A DNA stretch of 64,000 nucleotides from Methanobrevibacter gottschalkii DSM 11977 (GTDB lineage Archaea > Methanobacteriota > Methanobacteria > Methanobacteriales > Methanobacteriaceae): positions 496,001 through 560,000 of the forward strand of contig NZ_RKRG01000002.1 of NCBI RefSeq assembly GCF_003814835.1, in the 5' to 3' direction. Each line of letters begins with the position of its first letter. Position 1 is the first letter of the stretch. The notes under the pieces were generated by a model. That model did not search any database. It worked only from the letters and a program-made list of their open reading frames with translations, and was not told the origin of the DNA. Positions 6,438 to 33,705 of the stretch are shown here, in pieces. A program made the position numbers and the translations under genes.

Positions 6438-7169
6438 ATGAAATTTTTAGTTATTAATGGATCTCCTAGAAAACAGAATACTTATAATGTTATTAAACAA
6501 GCAAAAGTTAATTTAAATGGTGATTTTGAAGAAATAAATTTAATTAAGGAAAATATCCCCATGTGTAACGGATGTTTTAAGTGTATTCTTGAAAGTGAGA
6601 CAGAATGCCCTCATTATGATAAAATCGATCCAATAATCGAGAAGTTGCACGAATGTGATGGTTTAATTATTGGTTCGCCAGTCTATGCGATGAATGTTAC
6701 AGGACTTTTGAAAAACTTCTTTGATCATACTGCTTATTTGTATCATAGGCCTGAATTTTTTACTAAAAAAGCATTGGTTGTTGTTACAACTGCTGGTGCA
6801 GGTCATAAAAAAGTAGCTAAGTACATTGATGAAACATTAAGGCATTGGGGAGTAAATAAAGTTTATAAAATATCATTTGCTTGTGGTGGGAATGATTCAT
6901 TGGATAATGATAAAGTTAATAAAGTGTCTCAAAAATTTGCATTTGATTTAATATCGAACAAATTACATTCTCCTAAGTTTACAGATATTATATTTTATAA
7001 TGTATGGAGAGCTATGGCATTATCAAAAGATCCTATAAAGGCAGATAAGGAATATTGGTTTAATACTGGTTTAGTTAATCATGATTTTTCACCGGAAGTC
7101 AAATTGAATATTCCAAAAATTGTATTTGCAAAAATTGTATTTAATGTTTTAAAAAAAGCAATTAAATAA
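6438..7169 (+). CDS. Iron-sulfur flavoprotein-like NADPH-dependent FMN reductase
   Basis: A 243-residue protein of the flavodoxin-like NADPH-dependent FMN reductase superfamily. It opens MKFLVINGSPRKQNTYN, the phosphate-binding loop for FMN. It then carries Cys-X2-Cys-X2-Cys-X7-Cys (CNGCFKC then ECPHY), matching the compact cluster motif of methanogen iron-sulfur flavoprotein (Isf), followed by GSPVYAMNVTG, the second flavin loop. Isf proteins shuttle electrons between ferredoxin and an acceptor, perhaps oxygen or peroxide. The C-terminal 70 residues are an extension beyond the flavodoxin core. Ribosome binding site AGGTGG. Stands alone; cluster ligation is inferred from the motif only. Confidence 0.82.
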   Translation: MKFLVINGSPRKQNTYNVIKQAKVNLNGDFEEINLIKENIPMCNGCFKCILESETECPHYDKIDPIIEKLHECDGLIIGSPVYAMNVTGLLKNFFDHTAYLYHRPEFFTKKALVVVTTAGAGHKKVAKYIDETLRHWGVNKVYKISFACGGNDSLDNDKVNKVSQKFAFDLISNKLHSPKFTDIIFYNVWRAMALSKDPIKADKEYWFNTGLVNHDFSPEVKLNIPKIVFAKIVFNVLKKAIK

Positions 7170-7244
7170 TAATATGGATTTTAAAGTAATGTTATATATC
7201 TGAAATGATAAATTTATTGTACTGATTAATTAATTGGGATTATA

Positions 7245-8273
7245 ATGGTTTTAAGGGAAAACAGAATTTTTTATTTAGATGAATTAAGAGCTATTGCAAT
7301 TTTATGCGTAATATTTGCTCATACAATTCAAAATTTTCCCACTAATATGGATTATTTAACATCTCCCACTCTTCTTTCTTATCTTACAGTTGCTAGAATG
7401 GGTGTTATTCTTTTTTTCATGATTAGTGGGGCATTGCTGATTGGCAGGGAATATAATTTATCTGATTTTTTAAAAAGAAGATTTGCCAGAGTATTAATTC
7501 CAACAATTTTTTGGCAGATTATTGGATATTTATCAGTTCTAATTTTTATAGGTTTTACTTATGATAATTTAGTTCAAGCAAGTGTTCAAGTTGGTTTTCC
7601 ATGGTTTGTATGTGCAATTTTAGGGATTTATTTTGTTATTCCCATATTTAATTCCTTTATTAAAGAATATGGGATTAAAGGTGCAGAATATTTCTTGATT
7701 ATATGGGTATTTTTAGTTATATTAACAAATATGCAGCTAAATGAAACTTATTATATTGATTTCATATTCAACAATGTAGGAATATATATTGGATATGCAG
7801 TTTTAGGTTATTATTTAGCAAATAAAGAGTTTAATATATACTCTTTTCCTATGGTTGTAATATGCAGTGTTCTTTTTATTATTTCTCTTGCTTTAAATAG
7901 TTATTATGCATTTAATTTTAGTCATGTATTTTACATAGAGTCCTATTCAATTATTGTTCAATGTGCTTTGTTATTTTTGATTTTAAGGTATATGAGTAAA
8001 TTAGCTAAATTTAGACCAAAGTTTGTTTTATCAAAACTACATTCATTTGTTCAAAATTCATTTATTGGTAGCTTTATTTACTATTTAAGTATTTTTAGTT
8101 TTACGATTTACTTAATGCACGGTTTTATTGTAAATGCAATTATTAAATACATGCCAGTTACTCAATTTAGTATGATTCCAGCAATATTTCTATTAATAGC
8201 TGTAATTTCTATTGTTATTGCTGCAGTTTTGTCTAAAATGCCTATTATCAGCAAGTTGTGCGGTATTTATTGA
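7245..8273 (+). CDS. Acyltransferase 3 family membrane protein
   Basis: The 342-residue protein has about ten membrane helices and the N-terminal signature of acyltransferase family 3: FYLDELRAIAILCVIFAH, in which Arg and His are the conserved catalytic-region residues. Such enzymes (OafA, WecH, NodX types) move acetyl or other acyl groups from the cytoplasm to sugars on the outer face of the membrane, so a role in modifying pseudomurein, exopolysaccharide or glycoprotein glycans is likely. It has its own transcript: 75 nt upstream are AT-rich and no neighbour on the same strand is close. Converges on the cobalt-precorrin gene. Confidence 0.88.
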   Translation: MVLRENRIFYLDELRAIAILCVIFAHTIQNFPTNMDYLTSPTLLSYLTVARMGVILFFMISGALLIGREYNLSDFLKRRFARVLIPTIFWQIIGYLSVLIFIGFTYDNLVQASVQVGFPWFVCAILGIYFVIPIFNSFIKEYGIKGAEYFLIIWVFLVILTNMQLNETYYIDFIFNNVGIYIGYAVLGYYLANKEFNIYSFPMVVICSVLFIISLALNSYYAFNFSHVFYIESYSIIVQCALLFLILRYMSKLAKFRPKFVLSKLHSFVQNSFIGSFIYYLSIFSFTIYLMHGFIVNAIIKYMPVTQFSMIPAIFLLIAVISIVIAAVLSKMPIISKLCGIY

Positions 8274-8306
8274 GAAAAATAGAATAAAAAAGTATGAATA
8301 TGAAAT

Positions 8307-9059
8307 TTATCTATATTCATGTTTAAAGTTTTTGTCATATAGCTTAGATGCATTAAAATCTCCAGGGTCTAAAACATCTCCAACTATAATCATTGCAGTC
8401 TTTGTTATATTGGCATCTTTTACTTTTTGTGCAATATCCTCGAGGGTTCCTTTGATTATTTGTTGGTCTGGCCAAGTTGCTTTTTTAACAACAGCAATAG
8501 GTGTAGTTTTTTCATAACCTACAAGTAATTCATCAACCACTTTATCAATCATACCAATACCTAAAAAAATGCACATTGTTGCATGATGTTTGGAAAAACT
8601 TGCTAAACTTTCACCATCTGGTTTTGGAGTCCTACCTTCTGGACGGGTAATAATTACACTTTGTGAAATTTCCGGTAAGGTTAATTCTGCTTCGAGTACA
8701 CTTGCAGTACCAAATAATGAACTTACTCCAGGAATAATTTCATATTCGATATCATGTTTTTTAAGTTCACGGATCTGTTCAGCAATTGCTCCATAAATTG
8801 ATGGATCGCCTGTATGAACACGAGCGACTAGTTTTCCTTCATCAACTGCTTTTGTAATGATTGCATCTGTTTCATCTAAATTTAAATAGGCACTATTATG
8901 AATCTCACAGTCTTCACGAGCAGGAGATAAAACATCAGGATTTACAAGTGAACCTGCATAAATAATTACATCAGCTTTTTCTATGACATTCCTTCCTTTA
9001 ACAGTTATTAATTCAGGATCTCCAGGACCCGCACCAATGAATATAACTTTTCCTTTCAT
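8307..9059 (-). CDS. cbiF: Cobalt-precorrin-4 C11-methyltransferase
   Basis: This SAM-dependent tetrapyrrole methylase adds the C11 methyl in the anaerobic cobalamin pathway, supplying the corrinoid for Mtr and MesA-type reactions. The N-terminus VIFIGAGPGDPELITVKG is the family signature. Also visible are YAGSLVNPD, the HTGDPSIYGA SAM-binding loop and VPGVSS, all diagnostic of CbiF/CobM. At 250 residues it is of normal length. The gene is monocistronic, convergent with the acyltransferase gene and divergent from the pilin-like gene set. No ribosome binding site is seen before the ATG at 9059, so the transcript may be leaderless. Confidence 0.95.
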   Translation of the reverse strand: MKGKVIFIGAGPGDPELITVKGRNVIEKADVIIYAGSLVNPDVLSPAREDCEIHNSAYLNLDETDAIITKAVDEGKLVARVHTGDPSIYGAIAEQIRELKKHDIEYEIIPGVSSLFGTASVLEAELTLPEISQSVIITRPEGRTPKPDGESLASFSKHHATMCIFLGIGMIDKVVDELLVGYEKTTPIAVVKKATWPDQQIIKGTLEDIAQKVKDANITKTAMIIVGDVLDPGDFNASKLYDKNFKHEYR

Positions 9060-9157
9060 ATTTTAATTTTTTATTTCAAGTATTATTTAATTATTATGTA
9101 TCAAAATTGAATTTTAATCTGAGCAAACTTTATTAATATTTAAATTAATTAGAAAAT

Positions 9158-9553
9158 ATGAATGATAGAGGTTTTGTTTCAGTTGAATACATTTTTACAT
9201 TATTTATACTCTTTACAATTGGATGTGGTTTATTGTTTTATTCCTCATCACTTATTAACTCAAGTATTAATATTGAAGATTCTGTATCTCATAGAATCAT
9301 TTTAAATGATGTTTCTTGTGTAATTAGCCAAGTTAATTCAAATGGTGTTGGTTATTCAAAATACATTAAACTGCCATCGGATAAAGGTTATTTTGAAATT
9401 ACTGTTGATAAATCCAAACTGACAATAGAATATGATAATAAGAAAGGTGAAACTATGCTTCCTCTTTTGAATATGGATTCTAAATATAAATTAATCAGCG
9501 GGAGAGGATATTATATTTCAAAATCTGATGATGGAAAAATTGTGATAACATGA
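9158..9553 (+). CDS. Pilin-like protein with N-terminal hydrophobic segment
   Basis: A 131-residue protein with a short positively charged head (MNDRG), then FVSVEYIFTLFILFTIG, a hydrophobic stretch with a glutamate at position +5 after Gly. This is the layout of type IV pilin/archaellin precursors cut by a prepilin peptidase after Gly5. The remainder is soluble and strand-rich. No conserved domain is recognised. The next gene overlaps by 4 nt and has an even clearer class III signal peptide, so the two are probably minor pilins or surface fibre subunits. No ribosome binding site is visible; an AT-rich TATA-like segment lies about 25 nt upstream, suggesting a leaderless transcript. Confidence 0.65.
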   Translation: MNDRGFVSVEYIFTLFILFTIGCGLLFYSSSLINSSINIEDSVSHRIILNDVSCVISQVNSNGVGYSKYIKLPSDKGYFEITVDKSKLTIEYDNKKGETMLPLLNMDSKYKLISGRGYYISKSDDGKIVIT

Positions 9554-10047
9554 CAGGTGACAATGGACAGATTTCAGCAGAGTTATTATTTCTGTTTGGA
9601 ACACTAATAATCGTTTTAATGATTTCTATTGTGTTTATTTCAGATGAAAATGAACTAAATATTGCAATGGCAGCAGCACACAGCGGTGTTATAGAAGGGC
9701 TTGCTACATCATCAAGCGGAATTTATCCTGCAGATGCTTACAGTGATTATTCAAATTCTAAAATGAATGTATTGGAACCATATTCTGTTGAGATAGTTAA
9801 TATTTCATATACTGAGCTTGGAGGAGATAATAATTATGATAAAAAACAAATCCAGTTTAAAGTTTATGCAAAAACATCTGACAGATTCAATAATAAAGAA
9901 TTAACTTCAATTGGGGATAGGATAAATTATAACTTAAGAAAATCCATTGCAGTTAGTTTTAATTCAATAAATGCCACCAATAAACTTTATAATCCAGTTT
10001 TTTCACCTCATTATGTTTACACGACCGCTAATGTTAAATGGGTATAA
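9550..10047 (+). CDS. Class III signal peptide (pilin-type) protein
   Basis: A 165-residue protein whose N-terminus, MTGDNGQISAELLFLFGTL, contains QxSxE directly after Gly, the motif defined for archaeal class III signal peptides (cut by EppA-type prepilin peptidase between Gly6 and Gln7). A 20-residue hydrophobic helix follows, then a soluble, serine/asparagine-rich region probably displayed outside. It overlaps the pilin-like gene upstream by 4 nt and the next gene by 10 nt. Likely a pilus or surface-filament subunit, or a pseudopilin; which structure it builds cannot be told because no ATPase, platform or peptidase gene is adjacent. Confidence 0.72.
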   Translation: MTGDNGQISAELLFLFGTLIIVLMISIVFISDENELNIAMAAAHSGVIEGLATSSSGIYPADAYSDYSNSKMNVLEPYSVEIVNISYTELGGDNNYDKKQIQFKVYAKTSDRFNNKELTSIGDRINYNLRKSIAVSFNSINATNKLYNPVFSPHYVYTTANVKWV

Positions 10048-10433
10048 ATACATATATTGATTTCATGTATAGTGAAGATGAAAAAAAGCAGTTGATGGAA
10101 GATTTAAAAGAAATGGAAACTTTTAAAGTGGATACTGGGGATGAAGGTAAAATATTGCAGAACGATTTGGAGGAATATTTCATCAATGGAAATGGGGATA
10201 GGGAAGATTTAACTTTCAGAATTGAATTATACTTCTATGCTTTTAAAATATTCTGTAGAAAACCAGTTGTTATTGATAGAAACCAATTCACAATATTTTT
10301 CAATGATTCATTGCTTGATTGGAATTTAATAAAACTGATTATGGATGATTTATCAGACTTTGAACTTGAAATTGAAGCAGTTAAAGAAGAAAGAGATGTG
10401 CTTATTAATTTAAATTTCACACTTCATTACTAA
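10038..10433 (+). CDS. Hypothetical acidic protein encoded with pilin-like genes
   Basis: A 131-residue soluble, acidic protein without a signal peptide or membrane segment; I do not recognise the family. Its start codon lies inside the end of the class III signal peptide gene (10-nt overlap in another frame), which implies translational coupling. A cytoplasmic accessory role for the two pilin-like proteins is inference from position only. It converges with tatD: the last 4 nt of the two genes overlap (10430-10433). Confidence 0.6.
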   Translation: MGINTYIDFMYSEDEKKQLMEDLKEMETFKVDTGDEGKILQNDLEEYFINGNGDREDLTFRIELYFYAFKIFCRKPVVIDRNQFTIFFNDSLLDWNLIKLIMDDLSDFELEIEAVKEERDVLINLNFTLHY

Positions 10434-11191
10434 ATTTTGAAAATATTACAAGCGTTGCTTGTGGTAATTTCATCAACTGTGCCGATATCCATATTCTTAA
10501 TTTCAGCTATTTTATAAACTGCATTTACAACATTTGCAGGTTCATTTCTCTCTTCTTTTGTCATTGCCAAATAAGGACTGTCCGTTTCAGTTAAAATATA
10601 GTCCAAGTCTATTTTTTCAATCAAATCCTGGTGCTGTTTAGAATAGCAGAGCATAGTAGAAAAGCTCATATATGCATTGTCCATATTCATTATTCTTTTT
10701 GCAGTTTTTAAGCTACCACCATAGCAATGAAAAACAAAATAAGGAATATCTTCATATTCATAGATGATATTAACAGCTTTTTTTTCACAATCCCTTACAT
10801 GCATTACAATTGGTTTTTTGTATTCATTAGCTAATTCTAAAAAACCGGTGAATATTTTCTGCTGTCTTTTGCGTAATGAGTTATCGGTTACATAAAAGTA
10901 GTCCATTCCAACTTCACCAATGGCTACAATGTCATCTAAATGTTCAACAATGTTTTCATGAGCAGTTTTTATTTCATCATCAGTTGCATTTTGTGAACTT
11001 ACAGGGTGAAAACCGAAAGTTGGATAAATAAAACCTTCATAATCTTTTGAAAGTTTCAAAACGTCCATATTGCTGTCATTACTGTACCCTGAAACAATTA
11101 CATTATCTAATTTATCTTTGGCTCTTTTGATAACTTCATCCCTATCATCATCAAAATCTTCAAAATCAATATGGCAATGTGTATCAATCAT
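10430..11191 (-). CDS. TatD family metal-dependent hydrolase
   Basis: TatD-type enzymes are amidohydrolase-fold nucleases or hydrolases that act in the cytoplasm with two metal ions. The start MIDTHCHID contains the HxH metal pair. GEVGMDY carries the bridging Glu, VMHVRD and FHCYGG the later histidines, and TETDSPYL the catalytic Asp: a full set. I chose ATG 11191 rather than the upstream TTG at 11203, because GGTG sits 6 nt before it and the true family N-terminus is reached at once. The ATG lies just past the end of uppS, whose stop codon overlaps the ribosome binding region; the two are coupled. Confidence 0.92.
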   Translation of the reverse strand: MIDTHCHIDFEDFDDDRDEVIKRAKDKLDNVIVSGYSNDSNMDVLKLSKDYEGFIYPTFGFHPVSSQNATDDEIKTAHENIVEHLDDIVAIGEVGMDYFYVTDNSLRKRQQKIFTGFLELANEYKKPIVMHVRDCEKKAVNIIYEYEDIPYFVFHCYGGSLKTAKRIMNMDNAYMSFSTMLCYSKQHQDLIEKIDLDYILTETDSPYLAMTKEERNEPANVVNAVYKIAEIKNMDIGTVDEITTSNACNIFKI

Positions 11192-11192
11192 A

Positions 11193-11957
11193 TTATGCAC
11201 CAAACCTTCTTTCTCTTGCCTGATATGATCTGATTGCCCTTATAAAATCAACTTTTCTAAGTTCCGGCCATAAAGTTTCACAGAAATATAATTCTGAGTA
11301 TGAAGATTGCCAAAGTAAAAATCCACTTAAACGTTCCTCCCCGCTGGTTCTAATGATTAGATTAGGATCATCAAGTCCTGCTGTATAAAGATTTTTACTT
11401 ACAAGTTCTTCATCCACATCATCAATAGATATTTTTCCATCTTGCACATCTTTAATAATCTTTTTAAACGAATCAATAATTTCTAAACGTCCATCGTATC
11501 CAATAGCTAAGTTGAGGAATCTTTTATTATATTGTGCTGTTGCATCTTCTGCTTCTTTTATTGCTTCTTTCACATTATCCGGAAGTAATTCAGTTCTGCC
11601 TACTACTTTAACTTTTACTTCATATTTATGTATTTTCGGATTGTCCACTAATCTTTTGAAGTTAATGACAAATAAGTTCATTAATCCATCTATTTCATGT
11701 TTTGATCTATTGAAATTTTCTGTTGAGAAAGCATAAGCAGTAATAATCTCTATTCCAAGTTCAATACTCCAATCCATTACTTTTTCTAAAATATTCACAC
11801 CCATTTCATGTCCTTTAACAACATCAATGTTTCCTTGTAATTTTGAGTATCTTCTGTTGCCGTCCATAATAAAAGCAACATGTTTTGGCATTTTTTCAGG
11901 AACTAAATTCCTTGAGATGTACCATTCATATAATCTGTAAAGTATATTTTCTGCCAT
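11193..11957 (-). CDS. uppS: Polyprenyl diphosphate synthase, cis-type (UppS family)
   Basis: Adds isopentenyl units in cis to an allylic primer to make the long polyprenyl phosphate that carries sugars for pseudomurein and N-glycan assembly. The protein has [14 protein letters not shown], the signature Asp-Gly-Asn-Arg active site, then [12 protein letters not shown] and the C-terminal [20 protein letters not shown] motif. Archaeal enzymes use geranylgeranyl diphosphate to form tritrans,polycis products. At 254 residues it is normal in length. It precedes tatD in the same direction with overlapping translation signals; the Alg7/AglH-type gene at 37.8 kb would use its product. Confidence 0.95.
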
Positions 11958-11974
11958 GTTATCCCTTTTTTTAT

Positions 11975-12691
11975 TTAAAAGTTATCTAGAGTATTTGCTA
12001 ATATTAAACTACGAACATACCCTTCAATACTTTGATCTCTGCTTGTATCAATGTATATTTTATCCATTCCAAAGGTTATTGCACCATAACTTGGCCAGGA
12101 ATTAAGTAAAACTAATGTCCTAAATATGATATTTCCCACTCTTCCGTTTGGGGCAACAATAATATTGCAATCATCTTTAATTGCTTTTTCAACTAGAATA
12201 TAATAGTTTTTAACTTCTTCTCCAGTAGTTTCTTGGATAAGTTTTGTTAGTTTCTCGCTGTCTGTAATAGATTTTGACACTTCTTCGCCTCTTCCAAAAT
12301 CATCTTTTCTTCCTTCTGCAAGAACTGCTATTTTTGGAGTTTTTCCAAGTCTTTTATAAAAAGCAATGCAGTTTTTGACAATATTTAATTTATCTTCTAC
12401 ACTGTTGCCTTCATCGATTCCAACAGGTGTTAATAGAAATTCATATTCGTCTCCATTAACATAAGTTGCTCGGGTAATCTCTGGGTAGATTTCCTTTAAT
12501 TCCCTCATAATATTAGAAGCTGGAAGTGACCCGCGAACCACACCATGTATTTTATTATCTAAAACTGCACGCACTAAGTCTTCATCACGATATATTAGTT
12601 TTAAATCCGTTTTTGGGTGTTTTTCTTTAAAAATATGACAAGCTTGTATTATATTTTCATTTTTTCCAACACCAATAGCTATTGTTTTCAT
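11975..12691 (-). CDS. mtxX: Methanogenesis marker protein 4 (MtxX)
   Basis: A 238-residue protein matching MtxX/methanogenesis marker 4, a family found in methanogens and related to the phosphate acetyl/butyryltransferase fold; early annotation called it a methyltransferase-related protein. Features include [11 protein letters not shown] at the start, [17 protein letters not shown] (about residue 51), and [16 protein letters not shown], a PTA-like substrate loop. Its biochemical role is not known to me. No ribosome binding site precedes the ATG. A TATA box, TTTATATAAG on this strand (12713-12722), lies about 27 nt before the start, so the mRNA is probably leaderless. Confidence 0.85.
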
Positions 12692-28012: not shown

Positions 28013-28365
28013 TGCAGATTCTTTAATATAATAACTTTTGTAATTGAATTTGAATTTTATATAGTTTATCAATAGGATTGATTTTGTTGAGTATTACAAA
28101 TTTGATTAGTAATACTTTCTTTCTTTGTTTGAATAGGATATTAATCATTGAAATTTTTTATTATCGGCCTCAAATATTGTATTAAACTAAATAATACTAA
28201 TTATATATAACAATTATTATATTAAACAGAATAATAATTTCATTGATATTTTTGTTAACATTTTATAAATACAAATTATTATTATTATTACTTTTACTTA
28301 TCTTTTTCTTAAACAAATAATAACTTAAATATATATTATTATTACTATATTATATAATTCATTGC
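28013..28365. other. Long AT-rich upstream region of the CooC-like ATPase gene
   Basis: No gene is seen. The region contains repeated short inverted elements (listed separately) and, close to the gene, AACTTAAATATATATTA near 28322-28338, a likely BRE/TATA region that would start transcription about 15 nt before the ATG at 28366. Confidence 0.45.
28180..28236. promoter_or_regulatory. Two copies of a 17-bp operator-like element, 40 bp apart
   Basis: TATTAAACTAAATAATA at 28180-28196 and TATTAAACAGAATAATA at 28220-28236 agree at 15 of 17 positions. Each is an imperfect inverted repeat (TATTA...TAATA). A shorter third copy, CTTAAACAAATAATA, sits near 28308-28322 next to the presumed TATA box. The pattern is that of a multi-site regulator, identity unknown. 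Confidence 0.45.
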
Positions 28366-29169
28366 ATGTTTAATGAGCATGTTATAAAAATTAAGGAGGT
28401 TTTTAGAATACCAAAAGTTTTGATTAGTGGAAGGGGAGGTTGTGGAAAAAGCACTATCGTTTCACTTCTTGCTCGAAAACTAAAGAATAATGGAAATAGA
28501 ATTTTAGTTGTCGATTGTGATGAGTCTAATTTTGGCTTAAATAAAATTTTAGGTATAGAAAAACCAAAAAAAACATTAATGAATAATCTTGGAGGTAAAT
28601 TAGCTGTCAGGGATAAATTGCTTGAAATTGTTCAGAAAGATGAAAATCATCTTAATATTTTTGATGTAATGTCATTAGATGATTTATCTAACGATTATGT
28701 TACTTGGGATGATAATTTAGGATTTCTTGAGATTGGTAAAATTGAACATTCAATGGAAGGTTGTGCATGTCCAATGGGGGCTTTATCACGAGATTTTTTA
28801 AATCATCTCACAATCAATGAAAATGAATGGATTTTAGTTGATACTGAAGCCGGAATTGAACATTTTGGAAGGGGTGTTTTGGAAGGAGCAGATTTTATAA
28901 TTGCTATTGTTGATCCTTCTGAAGATGCAATATTGCTGGCAAATAAAGCATATAAATTATCTTTCGAAAATAATAAAAATTTCGGTGTTATTCTAAACAA
29001 AATTGATGATAATCTAGAAGAAATATTAAAAAGTAAATTAGATTCCAATATTGCTATTTTAGGAATCATTAATTATTCTTCAGATATAGCTATGTTAAAT
29101 CTTCAAGGAAATTCAGTAGAATCTGTTTCTATCGGTGTATTGGATGACATTATAACATGCATTAATTAA
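28366..29169 (+). CDS. CooC/MinD-like ATPase with CxC metal motif
   Basis: A SIMIBI-class ATPase. SGRGGCGKST (residues 21-30) is a deviant Walker A with Arg23 in the place of the signature Lys, and VVDCDESN (48-55) supplies the second acidic motif. Cys133-X-Cys135 (EGCACPMG) is the metal site seen in CooC-type nickel-insertion ATPases. Its place in nickel or other metallocentre assembly (for example CO dehydrogenase or another nickel enzyme) is inferred. The usual family start is close to the Walker A, while this frame begins 14 codons earlier; AAGGAGGT at 28393-28400 lies 7 nt before an in-frame ATA, see findings. Confidence 0.82.
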   Translation: MFNEHVIKIKEVFRIPKVLISGRGGCGKSTIVSLLARKLKNNGNRILVVDCDESNFGLNKILGIEKPKKTLMNNLGGKLAVRDKLLEIVQKDENHLNIFDVMSLDDLSNDYVTWDDNLGFLEIGKIEHSMEGCACPMGALSRDFLNHLTINENEWILVDTEAGIEHFGRGVLEGADFIIAIVDPSEDAILLANKAYKLSFENNKNFGVILNKIDDNLEEILKSKLDSNIAILGIINYSSDIAMLNLQGNSVESVSIGVLDDIITCIN

Positions 29170-29197
29170 AAGTGTATCTTTGTATGTGGGTGAATTT

Positions 29198-29827
29198 ATG
29201 AAATTAAAAAATTTTAAAAGAGAAAACATGATTCCTCTTCCTGTGACTTTAATATCTACAGCAAATAAAGAAGGAATTAGAAATATTGCTCCTTATTCAT
29301 GTGTAGTGACTATATTGAGACCAACAAATCTTGTTTGCATAGCTTCTGCAATGATGAGGGATACATATGTAAATATTGAAGAAACCGGTGAATTTGTTAT
29401 TAACATGATATCTGCAGATATGGTGGATGCAGTTATACCAACTTCATCTCATGTGTCTTTTGAGGTGGATGAGTATGAACTGGCAGGTTTGGAAGCTACT
29501 GAATCAAAAAAAGTAAGTGCACCAGGTATTAAAGGAGCTTATTCGCAAATGGAGTGTAAACTAACAAAAATTTATAAAGACAAAGATCCAATTGGAATTC
29601 CATATTTGCTAATAATAGGGGAAGTAGTTCATCTTGAAGTTGATGACGATTGCTTGGATGAGGAATATGGTGTTTTGGATTTAAATAAAGTGAAACCGTT
29701 AATGATGCTGGAATCTGATAAAGGAATGCATTTCTGTACAATTGAAGATCTTAATAAATTCGAAACTTTTGGAGCGATGTTTTCAGATGGAAAAGATCCT
29801 TTGGAATGGATGTATGAAGGAGATTAA
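29198..29827 (+). CDS. Flavin reductase-like FMN-binding protein
   Basis: A 209-residue protein of the flavin reductase-like domain (split barrel). PLPVTLISTANKEGIRNIAP is the characteristic start of the domain, followed by the FMN-binding segment FVINMISADMVDAV and the C-terminal LEVDDDCLDEEYGVLDL. Such proteins bind FMN and transfer electrons from NAD(P)H or ferredoxin-type donors; methanogen members often remain unassigned. I begin at ATG 29198 with GGGTGA 6 nt before it; the earlier ATG at 29180 lacks one. The RmlC-like gene follows immediately: the stop TAA is joined to its ATG. Confidence 0.85.
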   Translation: MKLKNFKRENMIPLPVTLISTANKEGIRNIAPYSCVVTILRPTNLVCIASAMMRDTYVNIEETGEFVINMISADMVDAVIPTSSHVSFEVDEYELAGLEATESKKVSAPGIKGAYSQMECKLTKIYKDKDPIGIPYLLIIGEVVHLEVDDDCLDEEYGVLDLNKVKPLMMLESDKGMHFCTIEDLNKFETFGAMFSDGKDPLEWMYEGD

Positions 29828-30373
29828 ATGAAAATTGAAAGTATAACTGATTTTGAAAATTTAGATAGTCCTCGTGTTCAAAGAATACCCGGATTTTATG
29901 GTGAAAAACTTATAGATGGTGTTGTTATTAGAAAACTTCCAATGTTTAGTGATGAAAGAGGATTTTTATGTGAATTTATCAGATTAAATGATGAAGAACT
30001 AAAAGCTAGCAATATAAAACAAATGATTGCTTCATATTCTTATCCAGGCATGATAAAAGGATGGCACCTTCATTCTAAACAAGAAGACCATTTATTTTGT
30101 GTAAAAGGAATGGTTAAAGTTGTTCTTTACGACTTTAGGAAAGATTCTCAAACTTATGGTATGATAAATGAAATTTTCATGGGAGATAAATCTCCTATAA
30201 TTGTATATATTCCACCGGGGATATTTCATGGAACAAAAAATATTGGAATTGATATGTCGATAGTTATTGGTATGCCTTCTTTGTTTTATGATATTGATGA
30301 TGTAGATGAAAGAAGAGTTAATCCAATCGATAATGATATTATCCCCTATGAGTGGGATTGTAAAATGGAATAA
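29828..30373 (+). CDS. RmlC-like cupin (dTDP-4-dehydrorhamnose 3,5-epimerase family)
   Basis: A 181-residue protein with the RmlC fold: DGVVIRKLPMFSDERGFLCE at the start and KGWHLHSKQEDHLFCVKG in the centre, where the histidine pair forms the active site, then YIPPGIFHG, the cupin closing strand. The family inverts C3/C5 of 4-keto sugars. No other dTDP-rhamnose gene is near, and it is coupled to a flavin reductase gene instead, so a sugar epimerase role, though favoured by sequence, is not supported by context. The following secreted FmdE protein starts 20 nt downstream and may share the transcript. Confidence 0.82.
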   Translation: MKIESITDFENLDSPRVQRIPGFYGEKLIDGVVIRKLPMFSDERGFLCEFIRLNDEELKASNIKQMIASYSYPGMIKGWHLHSKQEDHLFCVKGMVKVVLYDFRKDSQTYGMINEIFMGDKSPIIVYIPPGIFHGTKNIGIDMSIVIGMPSLFYDIDDVDERRVNPIDNDIIPYEWDCKME

Positions 30374-30393: not shown

Positions 30394-33120
30394 ATGAATA
30401 AAAAACTGTTGATTATAAGTGTTTTAGTAATATTTATATTCATTAATGCGGTATCAGCTGAAAATTCGACAGATATTAATTTAGAACTCAATCATAACAA
30501 TGATGAATGCATTAAGGAAATATCTGATGAAAGTTCAACAGATATTGATTTAAAAATCAATTACGAATATGGGGATGAAATCAATCCGGAAATTTCCATA
30601 TCTCATTGCAATAATAATATGAACTATACAAAAAATATAATTCATTCAAACAATTACAGAATTACCATGAATAAATTGAATGACGGAGCAGAATGTTCTG
30701 TTTCAGTTTCAGCTCTAGGGTACATAACTCAGATTCAAAATATAACCATAAATTCCCAATCAAACAAAACTACTATTTTTAATCTAAAAGCTACGGATAT
30801 TTACAAAATGGGATATGATATGACAAAATCTGCAGATAGATTACTTAATTTTTCATCTGCTGATGATGTTCTGGTTATTACCACTGCTGGAATGACAAGG
30901 ATTAATGATATTACTACAGAAAATGCATTGGATGGAATTTATAATGCTGCTGATGGCCATATAACTTATGGAAAAGGTAATCTTTTAACATTACATGCCA
31001 TAAGAACAGATCCAACTAATTTTGCATTTTTTATTAAAAAAGGAAACAGGTTGACAATGGCATTCTATCAAAATGCTTCTACAACTCCAGTATATACTGG
31101 AATTGGAGGTGTTGGATTAACTACAAATCAATGGAAAAAATTAAAAGGATTAATAGGTGCTGATGATGCTTATACTTATGTAAGTATTGCTAATGCATGG
31201 AATGCTGGGTTATATTCAGATATTCTGACTTTAGCTTCGTATCATGGACATGTATGTACTGGTTTAATTAGTGGTCAGGCTATGGTTACTACTTTAATTA
31301 AATATTATCCGCCACGTGGTGAAACTGGCGCCCAGCCTCTTGAAAATACTGCTTATTATGTGTTGGGAGTTCCGGGTGGTTCTGATGACGATGCATTTAC
31401 ATGGACACTTGATATTACTCAGGGCAAAATGTCATACATTGGGTTTGACACTATGGAAAATAAAAATATGAATGGTTTCATTAGATGGAATTCCTCATCA
31501 AATACTGGACTTTTAATTATAATGTCTTATGATGAAGCAAAAATAAAAAATACATTTAAAAGTTTATATCCAAATATTAATCCAGACAATAGTGTTACTG
31601 AAGATTTAATATATCAAAATTGGTTGATTTCAACTTTGATGAGTAATCCTGAATCATTAGTCACAATTGAAGCAGCTTATAAAGATCTTACATTGGAACA
31701 AAAAAATCAGTTAATAGGAAATCAATTATGGAGTGCGTCGAATATTACTGCTCGGGGATTGGATTTGGATTACATTAACAGTTTAAATTTGCCAGATGCT
31801 GAAATGGAAACTGGAATCTTTAATAATGTACATTTATCTGATTCACAGTTAAAACAAATTGGTGTTGATGCTTCTTTAAAAGCTGTAGATTACTTTAAAA
31901 ATATCAATGTTACTATAGAAAAAGACATGTCTAACTTTTATGTTTTGACTGGTGCGGGATTTGTACGTATTAATGATACTGCAACATCTATGGTATTTGA
32001 TGGTATTGAAGATATTTTTGGTGCTAGATTAAGTAGAGGTAATCTATTACCAGTTCATACTGCATTGTGGAAAGATTTGATAATTGAATTTTATTGGTTG
32101 AATACTTCTGATATTTATAATTCAGTTACTTATAGTCTAAAATATAATTCAACAACTGGTCAATTATATGAATGTTCACAGCAATATAATATTCAGGATC
32201 GTAGTTTAAGGTATGACCCTCCTTATGATGCTTTAATGGGCTGGTTATTCCATAATCATGTTTGTACTGGTAGTTCTCCCGGCGTATTGTTGGCGGATAA
32301 AATATTTGATGATTTGCCTTTAGGTGAAAATGAAAGTTATGTTTTGGTTTCAACTTATACTTATTGTAAGGATGATATGTTATCCAGATTGCTTGGCGTG
32401 TCTCCGGGTATGGGTAATTATTATAACCTGGCTTATTCCAATAGTGATGTAAATGCAGGAGCATTATGGACTGCTGATTCTGATATAATTATCAGATGGA
32501 ATTCAGAGACTAATACCGGAACTGCTACAATTATTAAGTTTGGTTATCCGATCTTTAAAGATGGTGCTGATGAATATGCGGAATGGATGAGATTTGTAAA
32601 AGGCGATTATTCTTCTGAAAATATTGTCTCTTTACCAACTTTAAGTTTTGAAGTTACTAAACCAATTACCAGAGATGATTATAATAAGATTATTTCCGGC
32701 AAATCCGATGATGAAGGAATTAATGTATTAAGTTATATTAGAGCTCTGCCAGATAAAATTCCTGCTGTTCTAATTGATAACAATGGAATTTCTAATGGAA
32801 ATGATGGTAATTCCATTAATAAATATCCAAAAAAATCTAATAACAATAGTGCAAACACCAATAGTATTTTTTCATCTTCAAATAATTATAATTCCCCGAG
32901 CAAGGGATTAAATCCTAATGTTGGGGTTTCTTCCTATTCTCTTTCAGGCGATAGTGATGTTGAAGATAAAGGTGAAGCAAGTAGTAATGGAAAATCCTAT
33001 GAAGTATCCAAGACTCCTGCAACTAAATCCATTGATTCTAATAGTTTAATTTACGCATTAGTTGGTGTTTTGGCTATTGGTATTTTAATCGGTTTAGGTT
33101 TTATGAAACGTAGAAAATAA
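30394..33120 (+). CDS. Secreted, membrane-anchored protein with two FmdE-type domains
   Basis: A 908-residue surface protein. Residues 1-23 form a signal peptide ending NAVSA-EN. Two homologous halves follow, each with a His-Cys motif of the FmdE family: YHGHVCTGLISG near residue 283 and FHNHVCTGSSPG near residue 619; in each half, the repeated element VRIND/TRINDI..DG occurs about 110-130 residues before it. A Ser/Asn-rich linker (about 800-880) leads to a C-terminal helix (LIYALVGVLAIGILIGLGF) and MKRRK tail, so the protein is held outside the membrane. FmdE proteins are known from formylmethanofuran dehydrogenase operons, but an extracellular tandem form has no assigned function; metal or haem/porphyrin binding is a guess. 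Confidence 0.85.
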   Translation: MNKKLLIISVLVIFIFINAVSAENSTDINLELNHNNDECIKEISDESSTDIDLKINYEYGDEINPEISISHCNNNMNYTKNIIHSNNYRITMNKLNDGAECSVSVSALGYITQIQNITINSQSNKTTIFNLKATDIYKMGYDMTKSADRLLNFSSADDVLVITTAGMTRINDITTENALDGIYNAADGHITYGKGNLLTLHAIRTDPTNFAFFIKKGNRLTMAFYQNASTTPVYTGIGGVGLTTNQWKKLKGLIGADDAYTYVSIANAWNAGLYSDILTLASYHGHVCTGLISGQAMVTTLIKYYPPRGETGAQPLENTAYYVLGVPGGSDDDAFTWTLDITQGKMSYIGFDTMENKNMNGFIRWNSSSNTGLLIIMSYDEAKIKNTFKSLYPNINPDNSVTEDLIYQNWLISTLMSNPESLVTIEAAYKDLTLEQKNQLIGNQLWSASNITARGLDLDYINSLNLPDAEMETGIFNNVHLSDSQLKQIGVDASLKAVDYFKNINVTIEKDMSNFYVLTGAGFVRINDTATSMVFDGIEDIFGARLSRGNLLPVHTALWKDLIIEFYWLNTSDIYNSVTYSLKYNSTTGQLYECSQQYNIQDRSLRYDPPYDALMGWLFHNHVCTGSSPGVLLADKIFDDLPLGENESYVLVSTYTYCKDDMLSRLLGVSPGMGNYYNLAYSNSDVNAGALWTADSDIIIRWNSETNTGTATIIKFGYPIFKDGADEYAEWMRFVKGDYSSENIVSLPTLSFEVTKPITRDDYNKIISGKSDDEGINVLSYIRALPDKIPAVLIDNNGISNGNDGNSINKYPKKSNNNSANTNSIFSSSNNYNSPSKGLNPNVGVSSYSLSGDSDVEDKGEASSNGKSYEVSKTPATKSIDSNSLIYALVGVLAIGILIGLGFMKRRK

Positions 33121-33178: not shown

Positions 33179-33705
33179 GATTGGGAAATAGTGATCTAAT
33201 TAAACCACTATGCATTTATTTAAGTAATTTTATTGTATTTTTTGTTATTGATTTAACATATGCTTATCCAGGACATGGCGAGTATATGGGAAGTCAAATC
33301 CAATAATCATGATTCAGCCGTTTTATTATTTTCATTTTACATAATAGCATGTTTGTTTAACTGAAAATTAAAATAATAGTTATGGGTGTCCGCCAAAAAT
33401 CTAAAATTAATTTTTGAAACTGATTAAAAATACTTCAATTCAAAAACAAAGAAAAATTTACATCGAAAAAATTACTTTTGGCGAACAGTCTTATATTAAA
33501 CAATAATTCTAATTTTAAGATAACTCGGCCAATAATCAATTTAATAGCTTAATATATATTTTTTCTTAAAAAATTACTATTTCTTTAATTTATAGTTTCT
33601 ATTAAAAAGATTAAATATTATAAAAATATCCTAAAAAAAGCTAATTTTATTATACATGAATAACATAATTATTTAATGTTTAAACTTAAATATGGGGATT
33701 AGAAA
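33179..33705. other. Intergenic region with an inverted-repeat element, otherwise no gene
   Basis: A 29-codon frame from ATG 33275 ending at 33364 (MASIWEVKSNNHDSAVLLF...) might be a gene remnant but has no ribosome binding site. The 101-bp inverted-repeat element is listed separately. Upstream of metG is AATGTTTAAACTTAAATATGGGG, with a TATA-like TTTAAACTTAAATA about 25 nt before the start. Confidence 0.4.
33387..33487. mobile_element. MITE-like element with 14-bp imperfect terminal inverted repeats
   Basis: TGTCCGCCAAAAAT at 33387-33400 and the inverted TGTTCGCCAAAAGT (plus strand ACTTTTGGCGAACA, 33474-33487) match at 12 of 14 positions. The 101-bp unit has no coding capacity. It looks like the ends of an insertion sequence joined with little between them. 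I see no clear target-site duplication, and no transposase in the window with such ends. Confidence 0.4.

Follow-up and report, generated by a model that had tools for sequence, protein, structure and literature searches.

The 908-residue product of one gene in the window, which is the whole 64,000-nt stretch of contig NZ_RKRG01000002.1 from Methanobrevibacter gottschalkii DSM 11977 (G000, the own genome below) that was analysed, is an exported, membrane-anchored protein with two FmdE domains. We consider the chances about even that this protein traps a divalent metal, with Ni2+ as the likeliest candidate and Co2+ as a possible one, and passes it to a membrane importer. FmdE proteins are normally cytoplasmic, and the FmdE-repeat protein is assembled from known parts. 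The original prediction proposed an extracellular role in binding a metal or cofactor, and this gains support from the genes found next to members of the family, which include CbiM, a trio of DUF2162 (PF09930), MotA/ExbB (PF01618) and DUF2149 (PF09919) genes, an exported CobN and a CooC-like ATPase. This context gives good support to a role in metal uptake, with nickel or cobalt as the best guess for the metal.

The open reading frame, the two FmdE stretches, the N-terminal hydrophobic segment and the C-terminal anchor were confirmed by Pfam and hydropathy analysis. The whole protein scored 59.3 bits against Pfam FmdE (PF02663; cut-off 22.9) over two stretches, and both places exceeded the cut-off separately in the genome profile search (34.4 and 28.5 bits). 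The HVCTG motif lies at residues 286-290 (as HGHVC) and 622-626 (as HNHVC). Residues 5-23 and 885-903 were the top hydropathy windows (means 2.48 and 2.57; next best 1.09), so that the hydrophobic N-terminus needed for the predicted export is present, and A22 at the presumed cleavage site was invariant in a 25-sequence alignment. By a simple threshold, 48 of the 53 two-motif proteins have a hydrophobic N-terminus and all 53 have a C-terminal hydrophobic segment. The full-length monomer model had a pLDDT of 72.9 and a pTM of 0.74. Searches with the whole protein gave no match in the PDB by sequence or in NCBIfam, a search of phage sequences for the family gave no match, and an exported tandem-FmdE protein was named in no title found in the openly licensed literature. 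The features of the gene and its cluster are collected in Table 1.

Table 1. Features of the FmdE-repeat gene and its cluster (positions in the window; residues are those of the 908-residue protein).
Feature	Position	Strand	Basis
Inverted repeat ATAATAA-N16-TATTACT with AT-rich TATA-like core; presumed operator heading the four-gene cluster	28317..28346 (G000:C2:524317-524346)	+	Pattern search
CooC-like P-loop ATPase with CxC motif	28366..29169	+	CooC 3kje E 2.1e-16, CxC aligned; CbiA/MinD P-loop
Flavin-reductase-like (FMN-binding split barrel) protein	29180..29827	+	PF01613 81.2 bits; 1eje E 8.3e-19
RmlC-like cupin	29828..30373	+	PF00908 62.1 bits
Exported, membrane-anchored FmdE-repeat protein, 908 aa, ATG start	30394..33120	+	ORF, Pfam, hydropathy, model
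Presumed signal peptide, residues 1-22	30394..30459	+	By eye and hydropathy
CnaB/transthyretin-like beta-sandwich, residues 44-134	30523..30795	+	8qox_B Z 8.4; 2nsm Z 8.3
Probable degenerate FmdE-like core 1 (module N1) without metal loop, residues about 135-272	30796..31209	+	Structure of 131-276 folded alone
Intact FmdE core 1 (F1), residues 273-447; H284/H286/C288 at 31243-31257, Ser330 replaces the fourth Cys	31210..31734	+	Pfam, structure match
Probable degenerate FmdE-like core 2 (module N2), residues about 480-606	31831..32211	+	hhalign to N1
Intact FmdE core 2 (F2), residues 607-772; H620/H622/C624 at 32251-32265, C658 at 32365-32367; complete HHCC	32212..32709	+	Pfam, hhalign
Low-complexity Asn/Ser-rich stalk, residues 792-868	32767..32997	+	pLDDT under 50
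C-terminal transmembrane anchor, residues 885-903, behind conserved YE pair 869-870	33046..33102	+	Hydropathy, alignment
HPGHG partner gene remnant: hydrophobic stretch, AYPGHGEY, stop	33181..33306	+	Comparison with intact partners

The putative metal ligands are conserved in the full-length members of the family. H284, H286, C288, D333, H620, H622, C624, C658 and D661 were each present in 53 of 53 full-length members in the fetched loci, so the Cys/His ligands on which the predicted role depends are retained in orthologues, and position 330 was Ser in all 53. Because C658 is kept and position 330 is always Ser, site 2 has a complete HHCC set and site 1 is one thiolate short, with one of its four classical ligands replaced by Ser throughout. 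According to the FmdE structure paper, Zn is bound at the His-x-His-x-Cys plus Cys site by two of the three FmdE proteins of known structure, one of which also binds Ni, the solved proteins are dimers with a cleft that in one of them is formed by both subunits, and most PF02663 genes adjoin metal-ion transporter genes (PMC2954224). Since the solved proteins are dimeric, the cores of a single chain may pair, and such pairing would create two unequal sites, HHCC at core 2 and HHC(S) at core 1. The window protein shares with these FmdE proteins (2glz, 2gvi, 3d00) the fold of the intact cores, the HxHxC loop, the fourth Cys in core 2 and the Asp three residues further on. It differs in having export signals, an anchor, probably four cores of which two are loop-less, and Ser as the fourth ligand of core 1, and Pfam reports no C-terminal zinc finger in it.

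The conservation of the ligands also bears on whether the protein is instead a structural or adhesin-like wall protein in which the FmdE cores act as a scaffold without metal chemistry. The stalk and anchor would suit such a protein, and of the 18 tallied relatives that lack the metal motif, 7 still lie within 8 kb of a trio gene. However, all seven His/Cys positions are unchanged across the 53 long members, the promoter repeat described below is absent at one mismatch or fewer from the 16 motif-less relatives that were scored, and the neighbours of the family are metal genes, which together make a purely structural role improbable.

Two intact and two degenerate FmdE-like cores are probably present in the chain, which makes four in all. 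The earlier count of two FmdE domains holds for those detected by Pfam, but is probably too low, as a motif-less core appears to precede each intact one. When residues 273-447 of the full-length model were compared with solved FmdE proteins, F1 matched 2glz_B (Z 10.2), 3d00 (Z 9.5) and 2gvi (Z 8.7). F2 matched a profile of four cytosolic FmdE proteins with an hhalign probability of 92.4 (E 5.3e-7), with C658 falling on their conserved Cys, the counterpart of the fourth metal ligand, while F1 reached a probability of only 62.5 against the same four. The protein consists of two halves: hhalign pairs N1 with N2 at a probability of 98.6 and F1 with F2 at 98.9, and H555 of N2 is conserved in 53 of 53 full-length members. 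N1 folded alone (residues 131-276) gave a pLDDT of 89, and the top Foldseek match of this model was 2gvi (probability 1.00, E 0.013). In VIA-align the first match was 2glz_B, with a Z of 7.9 and an rmsd of 2.3 over 96 residues, followed by 2gvi at Z 7.1, and the alignment to 2glz begins at 2glz residue 16, inside the metal loop. Next in the ranking for N1 came structural matches that included fragments of serine dehydratase as well as 3-phosphoglycerate dehydrogenase, at Z scores from 6.5 down to 5.7. According to the structure paper, the metal ligands of 2glz are residues 15, 17 and 19, and these same outsiders were found for the FmdE core (PMC2954224). In hhalign profiles, neither N1 nor N2 matched the four cytosolic FmdE proteins; a two-sequence FmdE profile missed even F1 and F2 and so carries no evidence on N1 or N2, and in the whole-chain structure search the FmdE structures aligned to residues 273-447, so that N1 was hardly probed. 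Because its Z scores lie below 8 and profile confirmation is lacking, N1 is graded as a likely FmdE core, and N2, through its resemblance to N1, is likely to be related to FmdE as well.

The genes that surround family members point towards metal import. Recurrent partners identified by Pfam were CbiM (PF01891), the trio and exported CobN (PF02514), and they were joined by two small exported proteins, HPGHG and CbiN-like, for which the Pfam search gave no convincing match. In Ni/Co importers, CbiM is the substrate subunit. HPGHG lay within 8 kb of 36 of the 52 two-motif genes, CbiM of 30, any trio gene of 24, CobN of 6 and CooC of 3, in a tally that covers the fetched stretches and the window, some ending at contig ends, and in which neighbourhoods from the same genus are not independent. 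None of the labelled partners lay near 7 of the 52 (5 of 9 in g19, 1 of 2 in g18 and 1 of 30 in g1). For comparison, the own genome has four DUF2149 genes, and from the genome length about 3 in 100 random genes are estimated to have one within 8 kb. In the HPGHG proteins a His directly follows a signal-peptidase-like site, after Ala in 32 of 34 and after Ser in 2 of 34; in the 28 CbiN-like proteins the His follows Ala in 21, Ser in 4 and Gly in 2, and the motif is missing in one. The own genome has three paralogues, of which L043 has CbiM, CbiN-like, HPGHG and trio genes nearby, L042 has HPGHG alone, and within 8 kb of the window gene neither CbiM nor a trio gene nor CobN was labelled. Like the Nik/CbiMNQO ECF importers under NikR, the family has CbiM beside many of its genes and an inverted repeat close in length to NikR signals, but Pfam finds no convincing match for its CbiN-like partner. 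Excerpts of two papers that were searched for FmdE do not mention it (PMC10617489, PMC2667541).

The presence of CobN raises the alternative that the system salvages tetrapyrroles, with the surface protein, the exported CobN-type chelatase and the trio removing metal from a corrinoid, F430 or haem. A CobN-type gene accompanies the family gene in L134, L136, L137, L161 (g19), L145 and L151, and also in L146, which was dropped from the tally because its family gene was labelled CobN via the anchor; the neighbours of that gene are HPGHG, CbiM, CbiN-like, DUF2162, ExbB and a CobN. Long alignments underlie the CobN labels. In the own genome, an exported 1713-aa CobN-type gene is followed directly by DUF2162, ExbB and DUF2149 in one row (L109:5083-11970, contig C3), an archaeal hmuSTUV-like arrangement with DUF2162 as the counterpart of HmuT. 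In Bacteroidota haem operons, as described in excerpts of two papers, HmuU is of the ExbB type and HmuV of the DUF2149 type, and both adjoin the CobN-like HmuS (PMC13227078, PMC10434189); a further excerpt involves HmuS in taking iron out of haem, which counts in favour of salvage (PMC10100974). The family resembles the Bacteroidota hmuYRSTUV system in pairing ExbB and DUF2149 genes with an exported metal-handling protein and, in some genera, a CobN-type partner, but adds the FmdE-repeat protein and CbiM, and the window copy lacks the trio. Against salvage as the general function, only 6 of the 52 two-motif genes have CobN as a neighbour, the metal-ion importer subunit CbiM is far commoner, and CobN in L137 and L161 reads as separate ORFs. 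Tetrapyrrole salvage is rather unlikely on this evidence, and no more than a part of the family could act with CobN in dechelation. A second row of DUF2162, ExbB and DUF2149 in the own genome stands without a family member (L110:7002-8703, contig C3), and a 437-aa gene beside it adjoins a family member in the relatives L064-L066.

FmdE was named after the molybdenum formylmethanofuran dehydrogenase operon, and the name would match a role in handling molybdate or tungstate. The relatives in L139, L141, L142 and L149 do adjoin ABC transporters that resemble Mo/W importers (by eye and Pfam), and in L142 (G143, 6830-12453) a divergent motif-less relative of 860 aa adjoins genes that by eye resemble fmdECB together with a molybdate-type ABC transporter. 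However, the HxHxCxG motif is missing in three of these four relatives, most of the tallied family members, among them the window copy, have no such transporter nearby, and His/Cys ligands suit Ni, Co or Zn better than oxyanions. A Mo/W role for the family is decidedly improbable, though these neighbours suggest that the metal bound by subfamilies may differ. A 'TupC/ModC' label in L153 was rejected as Mo/W evidence, since the ABC protein looks by eye like AtwA. The window gene does not lie beside fmdB or fmdC; its neighbours are the CooC-like, flavin reductase, cupin and MetRS genes.

Capture and delivery of nickel or cobalt, the reading that we prefer, would proceed as follows. Metal would be caught between the membrane and the cell wall by the paired cores and then handed to the importer, with CbiM, the trio, the two small exported proteins with a predicted N-terminal His after cleavage and, in some genera, CobN as the partners in paralogues and orthologues. 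The ExbB-like part would provide energy, and the exported CobN-type chelatase, where present, might strip metal from a tetrapyrrole. These parts could even be combined in a surface machine driven by an ion gradient, whose ExbB-like motor would work with tandem FmdE pseudo-dimers, joined in some genera by the exported chelatase, to pull Ni or Co off external ligands or tetrapyrroles and feed CbiM. We regard this elaboration as tentative and probably not correct in full, but if true it would mean that cells which have no outer membrane use an energised uptake with a TonB-like logic.

The setting of the window copy differs from that of most relatives. The FmdE-repeat gene is the last of four close-set genes headed by the CooC-like ATPase, whose true start may lie about 17 codons downstream, as suggested by a 250-aa orthologue. 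The same four genes occur in G055 (L044), and the ATPase, flavin reductase and FmdE genes occur in G100 (L153). The first gene of the window cluster, a P-loop ATPase with CxC, resembles the nickel-insertion ATPase CooC in these features, and metal taken up from outside might here end in a CooC-type insertion inside the cell. The HPGHG remnant downstream indicates that the window copy probably once had an HPGHG partner.

Many family genes share an inverted repeat in their upstream regions. When 54 family upstreams were searched for GTAATA-Ns-TATTAC, the spacer was 16 in 18, 17 in 7 and 19 in 4, while every other spacer from 0 to 40 occurred at most once; random sequences of similar dinucleotide content gave an average of 0.035 of 54 at spacer 16. 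With a looser score (one mismatch or fewer), 30 of 71 family upstreams and 5 of 903 others matched, the consensus having been derived from the same family upstreams that are scored here. The five non-family matches were two CooC cluster heads (the window and L044), two CbiM genes and an 864-aa surface protein in L109. The repeat at the L044 cluster head had no mismatch, and that at L153 was weaker, with two. The own genome has no exact GTAATA-N16-TATTAC site and no AGTAATA-N15/16-TATTACT site; the latter pattern has sites in 5 of 10 genomes, at 6 distinct places of which 4 match family genes by coordinates. The relaxed pattern RTAATAA-N15/16-TATTACT gave five places in the own genome, and the pattern read backwards gave one forward and one reverse. 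Four of these five places lie upstream of L043, L042, the window cluster and a gene for an exported C39-peptidase-like protein, and the fifth separates two divergent genes of other types. All three family copies of the own genome are therefore headed by the repeat, the window copy via its cluster. The repeat before the C39-peptidase-like gene (L176, G000:C3:324818-325982) is identical over 29 bp to that of L043, and this gene possibly belongs to the same regulon.

The repeat is 28 or 29 bp long, and two own-genome sites, the window's included, have the 29-bp form. Excerpts of the NikR literature describe NikR signals as inverted repeats of 27-28 bp (PMC545781) and the E. coli site as GTATGA-N16-TCATAC (PMC7055735). 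The 29-bp form is one longer than the published range, and the half-site departs from the consensus sequences published for NikR. The repeat, whose geometry is roughly that of a NikR operator, may serve as one. Autoregulation of nikR was rejected as proof of NikR control, the repeat being hardly conserved before nikR: among 30 parsed nikR upstreams from 31 loci, 2 matched with one mismatch and 5 with two or fewer, compared with 0 and 7 among 102 control upstreams.

The gene is not an oddity of one genome but belongs to a family spread over the order. In the genus, 34 of 60 genomes matched, motif-less relatives counted in. In the order, strong matches (best E <= 1e-180) were found in 51 of 150 genomes, a figure used in place of a looser count of 112 of 150 because the latter also counts genomes in which CobN-sized frames match through their C-terminal anchor alone. 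Family members were present in records named Methanobrevibacter, Methanosphaera and Methanobacteriaceae, and also in G150, the single genome examined from the phylum outside the order. With its metal ligands and common promoter repeat, this conserved surface family offers a concrete, testable candidate, and it occurs also in gut and rumen archaea. The motif-less relatives, mostly of 480-640 aa, include L053, L059, L064-L075, L079, L080 and others. The own genome has two more FmdE genes, of 189 and 192 aa and without a visible signal peptide (L062:7697-8266 and L063:7864-8442); by eye, one follows a BtuFCD-like ABC transporter and the other has formate dehydrogenase and FdhD-like genes in its vicinity. 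A typical family gene was also found in L104, a record titled 'Bacillales', which is perhaps a mis-binned contig.
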